Shown here one piece after another: positions 23,940-39,018 of a stretch of 64,000 nt of DNA; position 1 is the stretch's first letter, and each line of letters starts with the position of its first letter. The stretch comes from Actinobacteria bacterium HGW-Actinobacteria-7 (lineage in GTDB: Bacteria; Actinomycetota; Coriobacteriia; Anaerosomatales; PHET01): assembly GCA_002841275.1 (NCBI GenBank), contig PHET01000002.1, positions 62,001 through 126,000 on the forward strand, given 5' to 3'. A model generated the notes under the pieces. It was not told the DNA's origin, ran no database searches, and saw nothing but the letters and a program-made list of their open reading frames with translations. Position numbers and translations under genes: made by a program.

Positions 23940-25772
23940 TCAGCCTTCCGGTGTCTTGGCAGCAGGGCTCACCGCAGCGGGCTGCGGCATCGGTTTGGTG
24001 TGCTGGCTTGAGGACGCCGGCGAGTATTCCCCGCGGATGCCTGCTGTGAGATGGGAAATCCCCTCGCTCACGATCAGGCCGGCGGCCGCAGCCACGTGCT
24101 TGATACTAGCCGAACGCGGCCAGTTCAGCTCGGACTTCTGACAGACGGTTGATTGCGAAAGACGCTCGAATTCGTCCTTGAGCGCCCACAAGGAGCGATC
24201 GCGGTCGCCCGCAGGGCCTTCCATGATGTCGTCAATACGCGCCATCGCGAGCCGTGCTTCTCCGATACGCTTCTCCGTCACAGCCGCGACCTTCTGGTCG
24301 ATCACACCGGCCTCGGCCTTGATACGGTTGATGGCGAGTCCGGCATCATAGGTCGCCTCGACCATTTCATCGGGACTCATGGCGTCGCTCTCGTAGTTCA
24401 TGATGTGCTTCCAGCTGGGCAGCACCAACCGCTCACGATGCTCTTCAAGCGTCTTGGCGCGCAGCGTATACCCATGCTGCTCCGGATTGTCGAACGCCCG
24501 TGAACCCGGGTCGAGGAACGGAGCCATGGGACTCAGAAAGCACAGCAGCCGGGGGTCGTTGCCTACGGCCGCGTAAAGGTGGCGGATGTACTCGGCTGTC
24601 TCGCGCACTGAATCGGCCGTCTGTGTCGGGATGCCGCTCATGAAGTAGAGGTCGAAACGGCTGCAGCCATTGCGCAGCGCATCCTTGACCGTCTGCTCGA
24701 CCTGATCGATGGAGTAGTGGCTCTTCCCGAATGCGGCACGAACTCCGTCATCGTGTGTCTCGACACTGATCTCGACCGACCAGTCGGGCAGATGGGCGTC
24801 GAGGAACTCGTAGAACTCTTCGTGCGGCGGCTTGAAGAACTCAAAGCCGATGGGGTTCTTGAGTTTGATCTTCTCGAGACCCAGTACGAAGTCTCGGGTG
24901 TACGTGCGACCCGCCTGCAGGAAGTCGTTCAGTACGAACATGGGCCCGGGGATGTAGCGCTGGATGTGAGCTATGTCGCGCACCAACAGATCGGGGTCAC
25001 GAAACGCCACCCTGTCGCGCCCGAAGTGCTCGCGGAACGAATACGCGCTTCCGCCGCAAGTCACACAGTCGTGTGTGCACCCTCGGCACGTGAGCGACGC
25101 GCAGACGGGGTAGTTGAGCCAGTCCTTGAACGGCACAACGCCCTTCATGTCGCGATAGCGAATGACCGACTTCATGTTGAACGAGTAGTCCAGTGAGATG
25201 GAGTTCATGTCCGAGGGCACCCAGGACAGAGGGTTGATCGTGACCGCGCCCGTCGAGTCCTTCCAGGTGAGGTTGGGTACCTGGGACAGGTCGCCCTTTC
25301 CCTTGAGTACTTTGAGTAGGATCCTCAGCGGCTCTTCGGTCGAATCACCCCGCATGACATAGTCCACACAGTCGTAGTCCACGAGCTCTTCATGGAAATA
25401 CGTGGACGACAGCCCGCCAAAGAGAACCGGCCGGTTGGGGTGGACCTTCTTGACCAACTTGGCTATCTCGATCGATCCATGAGCATGCGGCAACCAGTGC
25501 AGGTCGATGCCGAACATGCAGGCATCAAGACCGCGAAGATACGCCTCCACATCGAAGTTCGGCTTGGTGAGCATCAGCACCGCGAGGTTGACGATGCGCA
25601 CGCGGATTCCGTGGCGCTCCAGGTACTCGGCCATCGTCGTGAAGCCCAGAGGATACATCTCGAAGACCGGTGTCGAGGGCACCATGTCCGAGACGGGTCC
25701 AAACATGATGGACCGCTCTCGGAAGTCGTAGACGGCAGGGGCATGCAACAGAACAAGATCTACTTTGGGCAT
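23940..25772 (-). CDS. B12-binding domain radical SAM protein
   Basis: A 610-aa radical SAM enzyme. The [4Fe-4S] ligands are Cys232, Cys236 and Cys239 in a CTHDCVTC CX3CX2C motif. The N-terminal ~200 residues resemble a B12-binding Rossmann domain, but the usual DXHXXG cobalamin-loop form appears as D90-L-H92-W-L-P, with Pro replacing Gly. About 80 residues at the C-terminus are low-complexity. It is a class B type enzyme of unrecognised substrate; some archaeal relatives look similar. It is probably co-transcribed with menG, so a role in tailoring quinones or lipids is possible but unproven. Confidence 0.75.
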   Translation of the reverse strand: MPKVDLVLLHAPAVYDFRERSIMFGPVSDMVPSTPVFEMYPLGFTTMAEYLERHGIRVRIVNLAVLMLTKPNFDVEAYLRGLDACMFGIDLHWLPHAHGSIEIAKLVKKVHPNRPVLFGGLSSTYFHEELVDYDCVDYVMRGDSTEEPLRILLKVLKGKGDLSQVPNLTWKDSTGAVTINPLSWVPSDMNSISLDYSFNMKSVIRYRDMKGVVPFKDWLNYPVCASLTCRGCTHDCVTCGGSAYSFREHFGRDRVAFRDPDLLVRDIAHIQRYIPGPMFVLNDFLQAGRTYTRDFVLGLEKIKLKNPIGFEFFKPPHEEFYEFLDAHLPDWSVEISVETHDDGVRAAFGKSHYSIDQVEQTVKDALRNGCSRFDLYFMSGIPTQTADSVRETAEYIRHLYAAVGNDPRLLCFLSPMAPFLDPGSRAFDNPEQHGYTLRAKTLEEHRERLVLPSWKHIMNYESDAMSPDEMVEATYDAGLAINRIKAEAGVIDQKVAAVTEKRIGEARLAMARIDDIMEGPAGDRDRSLWALKDEFERLSQSTVCQKSELNWPRSASIKHVAAAAGLIVSEGISHLTAGIRGEYSPASSSQHTKPMPQPAAVSPAAKTPEG

Positions 25773-25961: not shown

Positions 25962-25991
25962 GGAGGCCCGCACCAGGTGGTGCGGGCCTCC
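25962..25991 (-). terminator. Rho-independent terminator after seven-heme cytochrome gene
   Basis: Near-perfect 13-bp stem (GGAGGCCCGCACC with its complement) around a short AGGT loop, followed on the minus strand by CTTTTC. It lies 45 nt after the stop of the cytochrome gene at 26037. The remaining 25773-25961 holds only the upstream region of the radical SAM gene; I see no gene. Confidence 0.85.
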
Positions 25992-26036: not shown

Positions 26037-27815
26037 TTAAGGCAGACCCTTGAGGAGCAGATCAAAGCCATAAGACGGACCGTAACCGTACGCATCGACC
26101 GTAGAGGTCACGAACGGGGACGGAGTCGAGATGAAGCTGGCCTTGTCGCCGTTCCAGTAGGAAGCGTCGCCGTGGCAGTCGATACAGACGGAGTCGAGGT
26201 TCTCGGCGGTCTGTCCGCCAAGTCCACCTACGTCGGTACGCACTGCCGGAATGATCGAAGCAGCGTTCTTGTCCTCGGTAGCCCACAAGCCGAAGTTCCA
26301 GCCCGGAGCGGTGGAGCCGGTGCCAGCACCGTCAGCATCGACGATGAAGCCACCGTTGGCCGTACGGGTCGCACCAGCAGCAACAGGGTTGCCCTGGAAG
26401 TCGATACCGTACAGTTCGTCCTTCAGCATGTTCGCGCCCAAGGTGCGGTGCGGGAAGCTGAAGCCGCCGTCAAGGCACTGTCCATTGATTGCAACAGAAG
26501 CGCTCGACTTGAACCAAGTCTGTGAAGCATACGAGGTGAGATTAGCAACCGGCGCGGTGATCGTCGCCGTGTACGCGCCGCCAGAGTGGCAGACGTTACA
26601 GTTGCTTGCGCCAGTGTGGCAGTTGCGACAGTGAGGACCGTCGTTGCTGTCAGTATCATCTACCCCATCGGACTCGATGGGCATCTGGCGTGCTCAATGG
26701 CGAGGCTGTGCATCGTGGCTGTAGGCAATCACGTACGAGGTGCCATTCCACACTTCAGCCCTCTGCGTCGAAACGCCGCCGGTACCGTCGTGACAGTCAA
26801 CGCAGAACTCGGACAGGGCCAAGAAGCCGCCTTCGAGCTTGCCGTCGCCATCAGAATCGGCGACCTGCGGGGCGATCGGGTAGCTCTTGTCGTTGTCGTT
26901 GTTCTGGCCGCCACCATAGGTGCCGTCCGCAGGTCCAAGAGGCTCATCCCAGTTGACCGCGTACTTGTTGACGCCGCCAGTCGCAGTTCCACCAACAGCA
27001 GCGACAACGGTGTCAGCAACCGACTCCGCGTGCGGGTTCTTCAGGAGCAAGAAGCGACCCGACGGCCAGATCGGCTTGGACGCAACGGCGCCCGACGAGA
27101 ACCACTTGAGGTTGCCGTAGTTGGGGTCGATGCCCCACTCAGCAGGCGAGTTGAGCGTTCCGTCGGTGCTGGCAACCGAGACACCCGGGATATTGGGACC
27201 CGAGATGTAGCCAGCGGCGGAGGGCAGCAAGACCGCAGCGCCGGTACCCATGGAACGACCCGGGTTGGCGAACGTGGTCAGGATGCGTGCCGAGTTCCCG
27301 TGCGGGCTGTGACAGCTGAAACACGCGAAGCCGCCTTCACCGGCCGAGTAGGCGGGCTGCACGTCGGCCGGGGCGTTGCCCGTGAAGCCAAGCGTGTGGC
27401 CCGTACCGGGGCCGTTGGTACCGCTGGCAATGGCAACGGCATCATACTTGTCGCCGCCCGCAGAACCTGCAGCGTAAGCGTCGGTGCCAAACGTCGCCTC
27501 AACGGACTGATACGCGTTGTCCATCATGACGTTGATCGTGGAGCCACCGCCACCGCCGTGACAGAAGTCACAGGCAGCCTCAGCGGTGTTCGCACGCAGC
27601 AACTTGTAGCTACCAAAAGCATAGTGCGTTGAGTGACAGTCTTGGCACTTGTTAGTGGTAGTCGTGTAGCCACCGTGCGGACCGGAGAAGTATCCGGTCG
27701 CCTGCGTGTAGTCGCCAGTGCCCGTGGGATTGTTGTAGCCCTCTGCGAATGCCGAAGCAACCGAGAGCGCCACAATAGCCATCGCGACAAGCGCGACGGC
27801 GATGAGCTTTCTCAT
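26037..27815 (-). CDS. Seven-heme c-type cytochrome with in-frame UGA, candidate selenoprotein
   Basis: Exported multiheme cytochrome of about 592 codons. The signal peptide is MRKLIAVALVAMAIVALSV and the export site follows near residue 24 (ASAFA). Seven CXXCH heme sites are read in order: CQDCH, CDFCH, CFSCH, CVDCH, CRNCH, CNVCH, CIDCH. The frame is interrupted once by TGA at 26694-26696; frame before and after the TGA is identical. The part after it (codons to 26037) has no ribosome-binding site and no signal peptide, so it could not be an independent exported cytochrome. I annotate a single gene with recoding as the favoured reading, and nonsense mutation or sequencing error as alternatives. 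Start ATG at 27815 follows AAGGAGG with 8 nt spacing; a longer form from 27860, also with a strong SD, is possible. Confidence 0.7.
26664..26696 (-). promoter_or_regulatory. UGA codon with candidate bacterial SECIS hairpin
   Basis: On the minus strand the TGA at 26694-26696 is followed after 12 nt by a perfect 7-bp stem, CCCATCG (26675-26681) and CGATGGG (26664-26670), with a 4-nt loop AGTC. The loop starts 19 nt after the TGA and its second base is G. Known bacterial SECIS elements have a small apical loop with an early G placed about 16-37 nt downstream of the UGA. No experimental or comparative support is available here. Confidence 0.5.
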
Positions 27816-28249: not shown

Positions 28250-29770
28250 CTAGTCTGCATCGTCGAACTTGGCGCTGTCCTCGGTTTCAGCCACCTGGGC
28301 CTTCGGCGAACCCTCGGACTCAAGCGAGTACTGAGCGAGGAAACCCTCAAGCGTGATGGTCTTCTTCTTCTCGGACTTGAATGGCTCAGCCTGAACATCG
28401 TCAGCCACCAGGAACCTCAGGCGAGGCAGAAGCAGTCTCCCGAACCTTGAGGGCGTCGCGGCCTTGATCAGGCGCTGCTCGTTGGTCAGCTCGGTCGGCT
28501 CCTCGCCTTCCTCCGGCATATCGGGCTCCGGCTCATCAAGCGCGACAAGATACTCGCCGAAACTGACGCCCTCTTCCTTCACCTTTTCATACTTGTGGAA
28601 GACCTCGGGCAGCACATGAATCTTCGCGTACACCGCGGCGAGCATTCGTAGATCGCCTTCGGCACGTGCAGCATCCAAGAGTTCCACTGTTGCGTAGACC
28701 CGACGCCTGCCCATCAGCAGTGCGAGCAGCAGGAGCGGCAGTGCGGCCAGTACCCACCAGATCCACGGGTTGCGCGCGAAGTAGTTGTTGTCTCCCGGGG
28801 GTAGCAGACGCACGATCTGAACGCGATCGTTGTACGTATCAGTGATTGCGAAGTAGCTGTTACCCAGCGATGCGATACCGGTCGGCAGGTAGAAGCGGCC
28901 GTCCTGGGGACCCTGCAGGTCCTTGAAGCGGTAGGTTTCCTTGCCCGTCTTCACATCCACCACAATGATGTTGTGACGGAATCCATCGAGCACGAACGCG
29001 CGGCCGCGCTCATCGACCGTCACACCGGTGGGAAGACCGAAGACGGTCGCCGTGTCGTCCTGATAACGAGGCGGCTGGCCCAGCACCCACGATACCGTCG
29101 CCGTGACGTCACCCTTCAGTGCAACTCGCTGCAGACGCGTGTTGTTGGTGTCAGCGACGATGAAGGTTCCGTCATTGAGCGGAGCGGTGGCGCGAGGATA
29201 ATCGAACTGGCCCTTGTCGGGACCACGCGTACCCACTTGACGCTGGAATTCGCCCTGGGTGCTGACGAGTGCCAGCGGGCCGAAGGTGGATACCAGCACG
29301 CCGCCGTCAAAGACGGTTGGGGACAGCGGGTTCAGAATCGGACGCTCCCACAGGAACTTACCCTGCAGGTCATAGCAGAGAAGACGGAGACGCGAGCGGT
29401 CGGTCACGTAGACGTGGTTCGATGCGGGGTCTCCGTCCACGCCCACCGGAGCGAGCATCTGACCCGGCTCAAGGCCACGAGCGCCCCAGACACGCAGGGT
29501 GTCACCGTTGCGGTTGAACGCGATGATCTTCTGGTTGTCGCGCAAGGTGACCCAGAAGTTGCCGTTGGCATCGGCGCCGATGCCAACGGGCTTCATGACA
29601 TTGGTATCACCGGCTTTGTAGATTGTGCGAACGTGAATCAAGCCATCCACGCGGGGCGCCTTGGCGTCCTCGGCCTGCTGCGCCCCACCGCTGAGGAACA
29701 GATAGAAGCCACCGAGCCCGAGCAGCAGGAGCAGACCAGCAAGAAGCAAGATGAGTGTGCGACGATTCAT
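28250..29770 (-). CDS. Membrane-anchored NHL-repeat beta-propeller protein
   Basis: A 506-aa protein. An N-terminal hydrophobic segment (about 6-25) exports an NHL/six-bladed beta-propeller domain, recognised by repeats like KPVGIGADANGNFWVTLRDN, YVTDRSRLRLLCYDLQG and FVLDGFRHNIIVVD, each a blade of about 45 residues. A second hydrophobic helix follows near residue 345 (WIWWVLAALPLLLLALL). The ~140-residue C-terminal part is charged and probably cytoplasmic. NHL proteins neighbour extracellular-cytochrome genes in other bacteria. Next gene upstream is a membrane TPR protein, with the seven-heme cytochrome downstream. Confidence 0.8.
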   Translation of the reverse strand: MNRRTLILLLAGLLLLLGLGGFYLFLSGGAQQAEDAKAPRVDGLIHVRTIYKAGDTNVMKPVGIGADANGNFWVTLRDNQKIIAFNRNGDTLRVWGARGLEPGQMLAPVGVDGDPASNHVYVTDRSRLRLLCYDLQGKFLWERPILNPLSPTVFDGGVLVSTFGPLALVSTQGEFQRQVGTRGPDKGQFDYPRATAPLNDGTFIVADTNNTRLQRVALKGDVTATVSWVLGQPPRYQDDTATVFGLPTGVTVDERGRAFVLDGFRHNIIVVDVKTGKETYRFKDLQGPQDGRFYLPTGIASLGNSYFAITDTYNDRVQIVRLLPPGDNNYFARNPWIWWVLAALPLLLLALLMGRRRVYATVELLDAARAEGDLRMLAAVYAKIHVLPEVFHKYEKVKEEGVSFGEYLVALDEPEPDMPEEGEEPTELTNEQRLIKAATPSRFGRLLLPRLRFLVADDVQAEPFKSEKKKTITLEGFLAQYSLESEGSPKAQVAETEDSAKFDDAD

Positions 29771-29803: not shown

Positions 29804-30499
29804 CTACTGACCGTGAGGCGATTCGGCGGGGGCGGGGATAGGAGCGCCCAGCCGCTTCAGGCCGGCAATCGCATCCTCATTGCCTGGCAGGTACTTGAGC
29901 GCCTCAGTGTACTGGGCGATGGCGCGCTTCTTCTTGTCCGCCTTCTCAAGAATCTCGCCGTAGGTGACGCGCATGTCCGCCGCCGTAGGAATAATCTTGA
30001 GGCCCTTATCCATGGTCTTGATCGCCTCGTCGTACTTCTTCTGTTCAGCTTGGATCTGAGCGAGTAGGAAGTATGGTTCGGCCGCCTTGTACTCGGTCAC
30101 AACAAGCTCACGTTCCACCGCCTTGGTGGCAATGTCGAGCTTGTTGTCCTTGATCATCAGCTGCGCATAGCGGAGCTGAATGCCGGACTCCTTCGCACCA
30201 TTTGCGATGGCCTTCTCGGCGTGAGATCGAGCGTCACCCTTGCGCCCCAAATCCCATTCGGTTTCGGCGAGCGTCATCAAGAGCGCCGCGTTCTTCGGGT
30301 TGCGCTTGAGGCCATCCAGCAACAACTGGTAGTCACGTTCGGTGTCGGTCTTGGGCTCGGTGTTGAAGAGCGTACCCGTGAGCAGCAGTCCGATGATAAC
30401 CGCAAGCACAACGATGAACGTTCCGAGGAACGCCCACGTGAGTACGGTCGTGCGCCGATTCGCGCGTTTTACCTTAGGAAGCGAACTTGCATCTGCCAT
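29804..30499 (-). CDS. Membrane-anchored TPR protein
   Basis: A 231-aa protein with a cytoplasmic, basic N-terminus (KVKRANRRT), one transmembrane helix at about 22-44 and at least four TPR-like units in the outside domain (LLMTLAETEWDLGRKGDARSHAE and YFLLAQIQAEQKKYDEAI are two). The ATG at 30499 has GGATGG upstream. It lies 33 nt before the NHL gene, and both are likely co-expressed. A scaffold for cytochrome or pilus-like assembly is a guess only. Confidence 0.75.
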   Translation of the reverse strand: MADASSLPKVKRANRRTTVLTWAFLGTFIVVLAVIIGLLLTGTLFNTEPKTDTERDYQLLLDGLKRNPKNAALLMTLAETEWDLGRKGDARSHAEKAIANGAKESGIQLRYAQLMIKDNKLDIATKAVERELVVTEYKAAEPYFLLAQIQAEQKKYDEAIKTMDKGLKIIPTAADMRVTYGEILEKADKKKRAIAQYTEALKYLPGNEDAIAGLKRLGAPIPAPAESPHGQ

Positions 30500-30610
30500 G
30501 AAGAGACCATCCTTTGTCGGAGCTACCGAACCCCCCACTCGCCTGATAGTTCAGCGGTGAACGTACCTGAACGCACGTGAGGATTCAAGCAAATCCACAT
30601 TATCCTCACC

Positions 30611-31780
30611 TTAAGGACCCGTTGGTGAGAGCATCACCTGATCGTGGCAACGTGCACAGAAGGGCTGCGAGTGACACCTGCACCCCGCGCCACCGTTTGT
30701 GGCCGTGGCGGATGTGCCGTGGATCGGGAACCACTCGGAGTACGTTCCATGCAGATTGGCGTCCTGATGACACCCGCAGGACTCGTACGAATGGGCCATC
30801 TCGTGGCACCGCACGCACAGTGCGGGATCCTTGGCTGAAAGACCCGCGTGCTGTCTGATGAACACACCAGCCGGGTGCGGCAGCTCGAGACCATGACAAT
30901 CGACACATTTCTTCTCGAGCTTGGCCGAATGACACCCTTTGCACGTGGGGAGCAGCGTGGTCTGCTTGTCAGAACCTGAAGCGACCGCCTTGTCCAGTGG
31001 CCCGTCCACATGGCAAACGTCGCAGTCCGACGCCGCGGTCCGGCCGTCATGACAGACAAGGCACCTGGACATCAAAGAACGCACCACGGGCGCCCGTCCG
31101 CGCGCGGCGGCAAGCGTGACCGTCTTGCCAGGGTCCGTATGCCCCGTGCCGCGATGACACAGCAGGCAGTCCATCCCTGCGTCGATCATCTCGGCATGGC
31201 TCACCCGAAGACGGTTGATCTCAATCGGTTCTGTGGCGATAGCCTGGTGACATGACAGGCACCGAGAGGAGGACACGACGCCCTGGCGCGACGTGCCGCC
31301 AGAGATACGGACGACATCGATCGCACTCGCCTCCAGGGCACCTAGGAGGCCTCCGGCCGAGTGACAACCCCAGCACCCGGTCTGAGCATGTGCGCCGTTC
31401 TTCCACTGGCCCACAACATCGGTGATGGCGTGGCAGGAACCGCACGGCTTGGAGCCCGTGGCGGTATACGGTGCGAGGGCGATCAGCGGCAACGCGAGGA
31501 GCAGTACCAGCAACCACAAACGCATGAGGTACAGCCGCCGGGCCCGACGTGGATCGAATCCGAGCCTCCTGCGGGCGGCGGCCGCGTTCACGCCGTCCGC
31601 GATGGCGAAGAATGCAAGCACTAGGAGCATGAAGCCCAATGCCACGACTGCGGCGATCAGCATCGATTCCCGCGGGTAGGCGCGAGGGTCCTCGGCGATC
31701 TTGGGCAGCTGAGTGGACAACGCTCGCCAGCCCGCCAGGATACGGTCCAGACCCTCCCACATGGTTTCCGAGAAACTCAC
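30611..31780 (-). CDS. Membrane-anchored decaheme cytochrome with two CXCH motifs
   Basis: A 389-aa multiheme c-type cytochrome. There are ten canonical CXXCH sites: CGSCH, CWGCH, CLSCH, CLLCH, CLVCH, CDVCH, CKGCH, CVDCH, CVRCH, CARCH. Two shortened CXCH motifs also occur (CGCH and CRCH) just before the last site. The N-terminus has two hydrophobic stretches (about 42-61 and 86-105), so it is anchored in the membrane. Translation begins at GTG overlapping the upstream gene's stop (GTGA). Predicted role is electron transfer from the quinone pool or across the envelope; the partner enzyme is unknown. Confidence 0.85.
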   Translation of the reverse strand: MSFSETMWEGLDRILAGWRALSTQLPKIAEDPRAYPRESMLIAAVVALGFMLLVLAFFAIADGVNAAAARRRLGFDPRRARRLYLMRLWLLVLLLALPLIALAPYTATGSKPCGSCHAITDVVGQWKNGAHAQTGCWGCHSAGGLLGALEASAIDVVRISGGTSRQGVVSSSRCLSCHQAIATEPIEINRLRVSHAEMIDAGMDCLLCHRGTGHTDPGKTVTLAAARGRAPVVRSLMSRCLVCHDGRTAASDCDVCHVDGPLDKAVASGSDKQTTLLPTCKGCHSAKLEKKCVDCHGLELPHPAGVFIRQHAGLSAKDPALCVRCHEMAHSYESCGCHQDANLHGTYSEWFPIHGTSATATNGGAGCRCHSQPFCARCHDQVMLSPTGP

Positions 31781-32775
31781 TGCCCATCACCATGCCCCAT
31801 GCCCACACCCGGGAGATCCGGATGAGCGGATCGCAGGTGGCAGTCGTCACAACCGGCCTGAGCATGGCACCGTGCGCAGGCTTCCTTGCCCGCAGACGTG
31901 GCCAGCTGCCCATGGTCAGGGAGGAACGAAGGCGGGTGCGGCATGTCGATACCGTGGCAGGTGTCGCACCAAGTGGGCTCGTGACAGGTTGTGCACTTCT
32001 CACGCGTCTTGCTGGTGAGTCCGTGACCGTGGACCACGGACCAGTCACTGGTGTGTGGCAAAGGCGTGCCGTGACATTCAACACAGAAGTCGGCTGCGTG
32101 ACACGTACTGCAGGTCTGCAGCTCGCCGAGCCCGTGGGTCGACTTCCACTCCGGACCGTGGGTCACGCGCCATGAAGTATCGGTATCACGCCTCTCCCGC
32201 TGGCTCTGCGTGGAATGGCACATCGTGCAACCGGACACCTCTTGGGCCGATGCTGTGTGGCAGGACATGCACGCGTCCATCTCAGGTAGGGCATATCGAC
32301 GGTTCTCAACCACATGCCCAACCCCGCCATGGCACTCACTGCATGCCTTTTCGATGAAGTCGGCGTGCTGGACACGAATTCCGCGCGCGACACTCACTCC
32401 AGCGCGGATCCTGGAATGGCACTTCAGACACGCAGTGTCATCGACGGTGGTGACCTGTGGCACCACGCGAAACACCGAGCGCAGTGCACGGCGCTGCAGC
32501 GCTATTCCGTCCGGCAATATGCCCAGACGCCCAGACGTCATGTGGCAGACGATGCACTTCACCGAAGGGTGGGCGCTGTCGACTGCGAGAGCCGCATACG
32601 GCTCCATGGTATGGCAGGAGGTGCACAGGTCGTGTGTTCGGGTGAGCGCTCCCAGACCGGCGGTCAGTGCAACCCATACAACGATGAAGACCAGTGAGAT
32701 GGTCACTCCCCGCCCGACGGCACGGCGACGCCGCACAGCGCTTCGCCTCTCAACGCCTGGCAGTCCACGACTCAC
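31777..32775 (-). CDS. NapC/NirT-type 12-heme cytochrome
   Basis: A 332-aa membrane-anchored multiheme cytochrome. One N-terminal helix is followed by CTSCHTM and VKCIVCHM, the start pattern of NapC/NirT quinol dehydrogenases. Twelve CXXCH sites are visible: CTSCH, CIVCH, CLKCH, CSECH, CMSCH, CTMCH, CSTCH, CVECH, CTTCH, CDTCH, CARCH, CDDCH. Likely role is quinol oxidation, with electrons handed to outer cytochromes such as its neighbour. Starts with GTG overlapping the upstream gene's stop (GTGA) and its stop overlaps the decaheme gene. Confidence 0.87.
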   Translation of the reverse strand: MSRGLPGVERRSAVRRRRAVGRGVTISLVFIVVWVALTAGLGALTRTHDLCTSCHTMEPYAALAVDSAHPSVKCIVCHMTSGRLGILPDGIALQRRALRSVFRVVPQVTTVDDTACLKCHSRIRAGVSVARGIRVQHADFIEKACSECHGGVGHVVENRRYALPEMDACMSCHTASAQEVSGCTMCHSTQSQRERRDTDTSWRVTHGPEWKSTHGLGELQTCSTCHAADFCVECHGTPLPHTSDWSVVHGHGLTSKTREKCTTCHEPTWCDTCHGIDMPHPPSFLPDHGQLATSAGKEACARCHAQAGCDDCHLRSAHPDLPGVGMGHGDGQ

Positions 32776-36180: not shown

Positions 36181-37353
36181 CTACTTGCCGCCCCGAACGT
36201 GGCAACGTGCGCAGTATGTCGGGTCGTGGCACTTGAAGCAGGGGGAAGCGCCGGTCTGCTTGACCGCGCTGGGATGCTGCTTGCGCCAGGGGGTCTTTGT
36301 GTCGTACTCCCAGGTTATCGACTTCCCGTGGTGGCACTCATCGCAGAACTGATCGGCATCACCGTGGCAGGTCGCACAGACCTTGGGCTTGGTCTGACCG
36401 AGCTTCGGGTGAGTGTCTAGGAAATCAACCGGGTGAGGCATGGGTAGCCCATGGCAGTCCGAGCAGAACTTCTCGGAGTGGCAGGTATTGCACTCGTTGA
36501 TGGCTTCAACCTTCTTGAGCTTAGCGCCGACGCCCTCCTCGGTACCCTGCGCGCGCCCCTCAGCAGCAGCCTGCTTCTTGCGCTCGGCCTCGTCGAATTC
36601 GAAGTTGGCTACGCGGCTCGCCTCTTCCGCACCCAATTTGGCGTGTCCCTTGGGGAAGAAGCCATTCTTGAGGTGACTGGCGGGCTTGAGCTCGAAGGCC
36701 GCCGAGTGGCACGCCTCACAGTCGCCGGGCGCCTTGATTCCACCTTCGGGCGTCTCACCCTGCGAGTGGCAGCGGAAACATGCGGTCATCGACATGAAGT
36801 TCTCGTGGGCGTGGTTAGGCTTCTTGGTCTTGGGATCCGAGAGAACCATCTTGAAGTCCTCTTTGTGCGCAATCCGGTTGTGGCAGATCGCGCAGGTGAC
36901 CTCTGCCTCCTCATGCGACTTGTGGTTGATGAGTATGCCGCTCGATGGTGTGATCGTGCGCTTGTCGAGATTGTGGCACTGAGTGCACTGCCTCGATGCC
37001 ATAGTGAGTCCGAGTTCGCTCTCACCGTTCAGTGGCAGCTCGAAGTTGTCGGTGAGTGTGAGATAGAGCTCGCCCAGGGCCTCGGCCTTGTGCAGCATGA
37101 AGGTGACCGGGCTGGCCCCAACCGGCATGTGGCAGGCCATACAGCTGATCTCGGCATGCGTCGAACGCTGATATGCCTTGATGGTGTCGTCCTGGACCTT
37201 GTGACAGCCCTCGGCACAGAACCAGCGAGTCGAAGTGACGCCCAGAGTCGCAAGCAAGACCGCCGCAGCCACAAGTACCGCCACGAGCGTCCACAGAATG
37301 TATCGTGGCCGCCGAATGGGGTCCTGGAAGCCTGCTAGTGAGATTCGCGGCAT
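36181..37353 (-). CDS. NapC/NirT-type cytochrome, 11 hemes plus a CX3CH motif
   Basis: A 390-aa membrane-anchored cytochrome. One N-terminal helix (about 20-40) is followed by an unusual CAEGCH (CX3CH) at the position of the first NapC-type heme. Eleven canonical sites then follow: CMACH, CTQCH, CAICH, CFRCH, CEACH, CNTCH, CSDCH, CATCH, CDECH, CFKCH, CARCH. A charged linker of Glu, Arg, Lys and Ala lies near residues 240-275. The NapC/NirT-like STHAEISCMACHMP segment suggests a quinol-oxidising role. ATG follows AAGGACGAC. It sits 9 nt after the 14-heme gene. Confidence 0.85.
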   Translation of the reverse strand: MPRISLAGFQDPIRRPRYILWTLVAVLVAAAVLLATLGVTSTRWFCAEGCHKVQDDTIKAYQRSTHAEISCMACHMPVGASPVTFMLHKAEALGELYLTLTDNFELPLNGESELGLTMASRQCTQCHNLDKRTITPSSGILINHKSHEEAEVTCAICHNRIAHKEDFKMVLSDPKTKKPNHAHENFMSMTACFRCHSQGETPEGGIKAPGDCEACHSAAFELKPASHLKNGFFPKGHAKLGAEEASRVANFEFDEAERKKQAAAEGRAQGTEEGVGAKLKKVEAINECNTCHSEKFCSDCHGLPMPHPVDFLDTHPKLGQTKPKVCATCHGDADQFCDECHHGKSITWEYDTKTPWRKQHPSAVKQTGASPCFKCHDPTYCARCHVRGGK

Positions 37354-37362
37354 GTCGTCCTT

Positions 37363-38841
37363 CTAGTAGTCAATTCCAACCCGGCTACCCTGTGTCACAG
37401 CGTGGCACATGAGACAGGTTCCGTCTCTATGATAATCGAAATACCGCAGCATCCTATTGAGTCGCGTGCCATGCGGGTCGTGACACGACGAGGTGCAGGT
37501 CAACGGAGCCTCCGCGTTCACGTCGTAGTGAGCTCCGCGGACCGGGTGGTTCTTGTTCGCGACACTGTGCGTCCGCTCGTCGAAACCGGAACGGGAATGG
37601 CACTGGAAACATAGTGAAGGATTGCGCTCTTGAAGCAAGGGGACATTGTTCGACCCGTGCGAAGTATGACAGCGGTCGCAGCGAACGGGGGCATGCGATG
37701 ACGTGTCGTATAGTTCGCGCTTCTGCTCATGGCACTGGTAGCAGAAGTTGTTACCCGTTGCCGCGACCAGGTTCAGATACTGCGCCGCGTGTGGATCGTG
37801 GCAGCTCGTACACATGAACGTGCCGCCCACCGGATGGTGGCTGGGCCTCCTGAAGTCTTTCTCGGTACTGTCATGGCACTGGTAGCAGAGATCCGGCTGG
37901 ACCGCGTTGAGTAGCGGTGTGTAGCGCGAACCATGAGGCTGGTGGCATCCGGTGCAATCACCATTGAGGAATGGTACGTGCTGGATGGCCATGGTCGATT
38001 TGAGTTCAACGGACGGGTGGCACCGAGTGCACAGCACGCGCTGTGAACTGACGAGCATCCCCTGGTAGTTGGATGCGTGTGGGTCGTGACACTCCAGACA
38101 ACGACCCTCCTTTGCGGGGGGATGTGTCTGCATCCGGTCAAGCTCACCGACCATCGGGTGGCAGGTGAAGCACAGGTCCTGGGGGGCCATCAGGAGTAGC
38201 GATTTGTACTTTGAAGCGTGCGGGTTGTGGCAGTTGGTGCACCGTCCTGCGGCGAACGGCTCGTGCGGGAACTCGTCGCCGAGCTTCGCACCCATGCTGC
38301 CGTGACAGGTCCAGCACAGTTCGGTCTCGGGCATGATCAGACCGGAATCGGTGGCCTTGATCGACTTGGAGCTGCTGGTTGAAGGATCGGCGGTCGTCGA
38401 AGACGAACCCACCTGGGCGGCGTCGCTTTCGGAAAGCGACAGCCACCAGCGAATCGGAGCCCACTGCAGGATTCTGCTGAAGCGCTGCATCAAATCGCTG
38501 CTGACGGTGGCCGAAGTGACCGAGACCTTCTTGCCGTGCGGGACGTGGCACGTGGTGCACTGCTGCAGCGCGAAGGGGTCGTGCACCGCAGGTTCGCTGA
38601 AGTCGGGGATCAGGTCGGTATGGCACTCCAGACATTCGATATTGCGCGCAAGAAAGCGTGCCTGCTCGCGTCCGCCGGTCAGCCAGACCTGTGAGACCGT
38701 CGTGCAGCAGCACATCAGAAGCAAGAGCAGCAGAATGACTGCAATCAGTCCACGGCGCCTGCGCGCACGCCGCTCGTCCTGCTCCTCCTGGGCGTCGATG
38801 TCGAGGTCGTCTTCTTCGACGACGTCTCGATCGCTCACCAT
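37363..38841 (-). CDS. Membrane-anchored 14-heme cytochrome, doubled-CXXCH repeats
   Basis: A 492-aa protein with an acidic cytoplasmic N-terminus, a short basic stretch and one helix (about 31-54). Fourteen CXXCH sites plus a CX3CH (CTSSCH) are visible, many followed by DPH or SHG as in doubled-CXXCH repeats, roughly every 45 residues. A Ser/Thr-rich, heme-free linker (about residues 135-165) separates the second and third sites. The start may be ATG 38841 or the adjacent GTG at 38838, which is better spaced from GGGAGGA. Probable role is extracytoplasmic electron transfer; no reductase partner is visible. Confidence 0.87.
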   Translation of the reverse strand: MVSDRDVVEEDDLDIDAQEEQDERRARRRRGLIAVILLLLLLMCCCTTVSQVWLTGGREQARFLARNIECLECHTDLIPDFSEPAVHDPFALQQCTTCHVPHGKKVSVTSATVSSDLMQRFSRILQWAPIRWWLSLSESDAAQVGSSSTTADPSTSSSKSIKATDSGLIMPETELCWTCHGSMGAKLGDEFPHEPFAAGRCTNCHNPHASKYKSLLLMAPQDLCFTCHPMVGELDRMQTHPPAKEGRCLECHDPHASNYQGMLVSSQRVLCTRCHPSVELKSTMAIQHVPFLNGDCTGCHQPHGSRYTPLLNAVQPDLCYQCHDSTEKDFRRPSHHPVGGTFMCTSCHDPHAAQYLNLVAATGNNFCYQCHEQKRELYDTSSHAPVRCDRCHTSHGSNNVPLLQERNPSLCFQCHSRSGFDERTHSVANKNHPVRGAHYDVNAEAPLTCTSSCHDPHGTRLNRMLRYFDYHRDGTCLMCHAVTQGSRVGIDY

Positions 38842-39018
38842 TCCTCCCTTGCCGCGTCTCCCCCGAAACCGCGCGCGCGGAATCCCGATATCCGCCTCAC
38901 TGCCAGTAGTTCTCAGATGACTCTACCATGCCCCCATGGGCATATGAATCGGCATTATGTGAAATGAAGATGAATGGCTCGCAATTGAGCGCCGACCGAC
39001 CGAGGTGGAGGCGTGCGG

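Follow-up and report, generated by a model that had tools for sequence, protein, structure and literature searches.

We asked how the cell reads a TGA codon that interrupts an otherwise continuous cytochrome gene. In the window, by which we mean the whole stretch of 64,000 nucleotides analyzed, translation of the minus strand from 27815 to 26037 gives a frame of 592 residues and a TAA stop, with seven CXXCH heme motifs and a single interruption, the TGA at 26694–26696 (minus strand, residue 374). An earlier, sequence-only reading had described this frame of about 592 codons as we find it, leaving only its strand unstated, and had proposed selenocysteine (Sec) at the TGA in the context HDAQPRH-U-ARQM. 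Our comparisons support that proposal: we put the probability at roughly 95% that codon 374 of this exported seven-heme cytochrome encodes Sec. The assignment is based on a site at which homologs have only TGA or a Cys codon, the presence of tRNA-Sec, selA and selB in the genome, a hairpin specific to the Sec forms, coding constraint across the TGA and the use of UGA as a normal stop codon.

The predicted protein combines a signal peptide, recognized by inspection, with several CXXCH motifs, as in exported multiheme c-type cytochromes. Its ATG start has AAGGAGG upstream, and the N-terminal segment (MRKLIAVALVAMAIVALSVASAFAE; 27741–27815, minus strand) is hydrophobic and signal-like. Four heme sites precede the TGA (CQDCH, 27633–27647; CDFCH, 27558–27572; CFSCH, 27309–27323; and CVDCH, 26790–26804), and three follow it (CRNCH, 26616–26630; CNVCH, 26586–26600; and CIDCH, 26172–26186), all on the minus strand; Pfam models PF14522 and PF09699 score above their cut-offs. 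The only non-heme cysteines invariant in the family are position 374 and Cys447 (26475–26477, minus strand). The latter opens the motif C(L/I)DGGFS(F/Y/W)PHRTLG at 26439–26477, for which the family also has the variant C.DDG.SWPHRTLG, and it is retained across Sec and Cys forms except in one truncated row. Nearly all full-length family members finish exactly in (K/R)GLP (window 26040–26048).

If the TGA were a true stop or an assembly error, the locus would hold a pseudogene or separate four-heme and three-heme proteins. UGA does end genes normally in this genome, with TGA terminating the neighboring radical SAM (rSAM), cytB and O-antigen-ligase genes, and an ATG lies close behind the interruption. 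This first ATG (26684), however, is preceded by TGAGCACGCCAG, which has no Shine–Dalgarno sequence, and the part 3′ of the TGA carries three CXXCH sites with no signal peptide, as had been noted before. Amino acid identity between the window and seven homologs is 59–68% before the TGA and 55–64% after it, and substitutions are in excess at codon position 3 on both sides, so the frame remains protein-coding beyond the TGA. Because the identical TGA also recurs in independent genomes of two classes, and paralogs read through the site with Cys, we consider a true stop or an assembly error highly improbable. We also rejected a reassignment of UGA to sense; the neighboring genes that end in TGA indicate that the genetic code is unaltered.

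The homologs exchange TGA for Cys and for nothing else. Across two classes of the phylum, 25 distinct homologous sequences share the aligned TGA, in the context HD..xRH-U-xR, and seven further homologs, one of them from the same genome, have Cys at aligned residue 374. No third residue appears at this position in the 25 Sec and seven Cys sequences; the Trp, Arg or Gly that had been named as evidence against Sec did not occur. Within the window's own order, every homolog covering the site has TGA or a Cys codon there, with TGA, in the context HD..xRH-U-AR, in the main copies. The family distribution was searched in 396 genomes of the window's own phylum, and genomes of the second class each carry several family members, with the TGA again at this residue; a contig pattern scan (DGGFS[FYW]PH, CHSTHYAxG) missed this class, which has DDG[FL]SWPH. 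A 30-sequence tree requires four switches between Sec and Cys, and well-supported branches force at least three of these. The full-length Cys paralog in the window's genome (G000:C17:29431–31662, minus strand; loci L011/L087; site SHDENSRG-C-ARAQ) resembles the window cytochrome in overall sequence (64% and 46% in two segments), in its seven hemes and in Cys447 with its flanking motifs, but it has Cys at the Sec site and Gly in place of His373, and it lacks the hairpin.

Three parts of the selenocysteine machinery, among those that the sequence-only reading had named as a check, are encoded in the genome: tRNA-Sec (69.3 bits), selA (595.8 bits) and selB (317 bits), the last cut by the end of its contig, its C-terminal part lying on a different one. 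Among 30 genomes tested, all Sec-bearing genomes that are at least 90% complete have both selA and selB, and the Sec-bearing genomes without selA and/or selB are 77–86% complete.

Downstream of the TGA lies a SECIS-like hairpin (26664–26681, minus strand) composed of CCCATCG (26681–26675), the loop AGTC (26674–26671) and CGATGGG (26670–26664). Its geometry is as first described, with a perfect 7-bp stem 12 nt past the TGA and a loop, with G as its second base, that starts 19 nt beyond the TGA. The bacterial SECIS model places the loop 16–37 nt after the UGA, with G in the first two loop positions (PMC13188914), and the hairpins of the Sec forms, with loops 18–23 nt after the UGA, fit this geometry. 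The proposal that the hairpin is a SECIS element holds across homologs but not for the window alone, where the hairpin does not stand out from codon-shuffled versions and thus by itself proves nothing (13/60 for this single sequence against synonymous-codon shuffles; p = 0.51 in a fixed-position test). For single sequences, a free test of hairpin energy seldom reached significance over synonymous shuffles, and we relied instead on the fixed-position test and on covariation. The 25 Sec sequences had a mean fixed-position stem score of 6.84 where synonymous shuffles gave 3.19 (Fisher p about 1e-19 to 2e-19, from rows that are not independent), and the seven Cys sequences had one of 2.36, against 1.82 in shuffles (p = 0.36). 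Covariation differs in extent among groups. In one subgroup of five sequences, 35/35 pair cells are standard and three pairs changed on both sides (slid controls, 11–49%); in twelve sequences of the second class, four pairs show two-sided changes and 90.7% of cells are paired, against 33–59% in slid positions. The window's own subgroup of seven sequences covaries weakly, with two-sided change in 2/7 pairs and similar slid controls. The codons AAT CCG GAG GAT for NPED (synonymous sites AATCCGGAGGAT) are found in 12/12 second-class Sec forms and vary in Cys forms. Judged by these comparisons, the SECIS-like hairpin is real, with its position kept and its stem covarying in the Sec forms and not in the Cys forms.

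Any UGA could be leaky in principle, and a UGA read as Trp or by another near-cognate would yield a regulated pair of short and long cytochromes. Against this, homologs without the TGA have Cys in every case, never Trp, Arg or Gly, the hairpin is conserved in TGA forms and absent or decaying in Cys forms, and sel genes are present; near-cognate readthrough therefore has very little probability. Comparison strongly supports decoding of UGA codon 374 by SelA, SelB and tRNA-Sec, which the hairpin just downstream would direct.

Multiheme cytochromes containing Sec are themselves known, if little studied. ExtKL of Geobacter (GSU2937–GSU2936, NF040886) is a predicted Sec-containing five-heme cytochrome; like the window cytochrome, it is an exported c-type protein with several hemes, has a single in-frame UGA and is encoded in a conserved electron-transfer gene cluster (PMC1914089, PMC5877670). 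Its five hemes all precede the UGA, whereas those of the window cytochrome lie on both sides. In the 2007 study no SECIS was found for ExtKL, which was described as having no Cys homologs (PMC1914089), whereas the window family has both Cys paralogs and a covarying hairpin. A 2026 selenoprotein catalog includes ExtKL together with a GSU2204-family CXXCH protein (NF041027) and a tetrathionate-reductase-family octaheme cytochrome (TIGR04315) (PMC13188914); the latter two are likewise heme-motif proteins with predicted Sec. None of NF040886 (cut-off 250 bits), NF041027 and TIGR04315 matched the window cytochrome at E ≤ 10, and the sole NF040886 match in the genome falls at another locus and scores under the cut-off. 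Because no NCBIfam selenocytochrome model matches, we conclude that the window cytochrome represents a previously uncatalogued selenoprotein family. The literature searched contained no description of this selenocytochrome gene, and the accessible part of a paper on Anaerosomatales mentions selenium only as selenate or selenite (PMC9686372).

The gene sits beside a conserved set of neighbors, all on the minus strand: genes for an NHL-repeat (β-propeller) protein (28250–29770), a TPR protein (29804–30538) and two NapC/NrfH-like multiheme cytochromes, cytA (30611–31780) and cytB (31777–32775). The gene order throughout the order is O-antigen ligase, cytB, cytA, TPR, NHL, Sec cytochrome, radical SAM, UbiE and amidohydrolase; the second class shares the core from cytB to the Sec cytochrome, and some of its genomes carry Sec copies in tandem. 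Relatives of NHL, TPR, cytA and cytB were not found beside the Cys paralog on G000:C17. A terminator-like hairpin, a consensus match only, follows the cytochrome gene (25962–25991, minus strand), and a second on the same strand marks its other flank (28225–28194), so the Sec gene may be its own transcription unit. Directly downstream is a B12-binding radical SAM protein (23940–25772, minus strand), conserved with the selenocytochrome across the order at 62–79% identity in most loci. Upstream of the module, two further multiheme frames (36184–37362 and 37366–38922, minus strand) have 12 and 15 heme motifs (CX2-4CH) and no inner TGA.

The resemblance of cytA and cytB to NapC/NrfH suggests a chain from quinol to the cell surface. 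Electrons would pass from the quinol pool through these membrane-anchored cytochromes to the Sec cytochrome outside the cell. NHL and TPR proteins are functionally diverse, and those encoded here might act as assembly or surface partners of the chain. At its end, the Sec site could serve extracellular acceptors, for example Fe(III) minerals or sulfur species, as a redox-active gate or as a point of substrate contact. A cultured relative that likely belongs to the window's own order (Anaerosomatales/OPB41) is an obligate Fe(III) reducer; it can use ferrihydrite for growth, and its multiheme cytochromes are the presumed agents of Fe(III) reduction. In the same source, no quinones were detected in cultured relatives, which counts against a quinol-fed chain (PMC9686372). 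Overall, we consider a role of the Sec cytochrome in extracellular electron transfer probable.

How residue 374 would contribute is suggested by the conserved residues around the hemes. Further histidines are conserved at positions 47, 64, 140, 172, 367 and 456 and, with exceptions, at 395 and 373: His395 is replaced by Arg in six homologs and His373 by Gly in three, but the two are never missing together. These exceptions leave the assignment of heme ligands incomplete. Loss of His373 (26697–26699) is confined to the Cys paralogs of one class, and that of His395 (26631–26633) to some of the other class's Sec forms. We propose that the mature protein carries seven c-type hemes whose second axial ligands come from seven further conserved histidines; these would suffice for bis-His ligation, and the hemes thus probably do not require Sec374 for ligation. 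Residue 374 (Sec, or Cys in the paralogs) and Cys447 could instead form a selenenylsulfide/selenol–thiol pair beside hemes 5 and 6. That this pair is a redox-active site is a tentative proposal, to which we give somewhat less than even odds. A different role for Sec374, as the axial ligand of a His/Sec heme rather than half of a redox pair, would be in keeping with the loss of His395 in some members and of His373 in others, since one heme might then use residue 374, and His/Cys-ligated c hemes occur in other families, such as TsdA and SoxA. The seven extra histidines suffice for seven hemes in most members, however, His373 and His395 are never both lost, and the invariant second Cys is better explained by a pair, so we regard axial ligation by Sec374 as distinctly unlikely. 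The broader idea that Sec works directly with hemes in terminal extracellular electron transfer of Gram-positive anaerobes, either as a Sec–Cys gate by hemes 5 and 6 or as a His/Sec ligand, is one we would advance with caution and do not favor over its converse.

The cytochrome could also be a subunit of an extracellular filament (nanowire), with Sec374 forming an inter-subunit selenenylsulfide cross-link or serving a structural role. It is exported and large and has few hemes per residue, its C-terminal GLP is conserved, and tandem copies occur in one class; moreover, a locus reported in Geoalkalibacter brings together an OmcE homolog, a putative quinol-oxidizing cytochrome and NHL proteins (PMC12016550). 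A functional analogy to the surface multiheme cytochromes OmcS and OmcE is possible, but the window family has no detectable sequence similarity to solved chains, its profile giving no match to any of them at E ≤ 1. We know of no Sec in OmcS/OmcE-type cytochromes. AlphaFold2 models were unusable (mean pLDDT 31 with 13 homologs and 38 with 30). On balance, we consider a filament subunit unlikely.

Annotation pipelines that take UGA as a stop would split this gene in two and are thus likely to overlook or misdescribe a surface cytochrome conserved in iron-reducing actinobacteria of the deep subsurface. The family, which has a covarying SECIS hairpin and whose genomes also encode Cys paralogs, has better sequence support than the first selenocytochrome candidate had in 2007, and its natural Sec and Cys forms make the role of selenium in a multiheme cytochrome directly testable. 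In the other class, seven-heme copies cluster at two loci, with three Sec copies in L117 (6788–16776) and the series Sec, Cys, Sec in L118 (6821–13215). The Cys form of L118 (9162–11306, locus L072; RHCKRQM) still has part of the SECIS hairpin and groups with Sec forms on the tree, and it looks like a recent Sec-to-Cys change.
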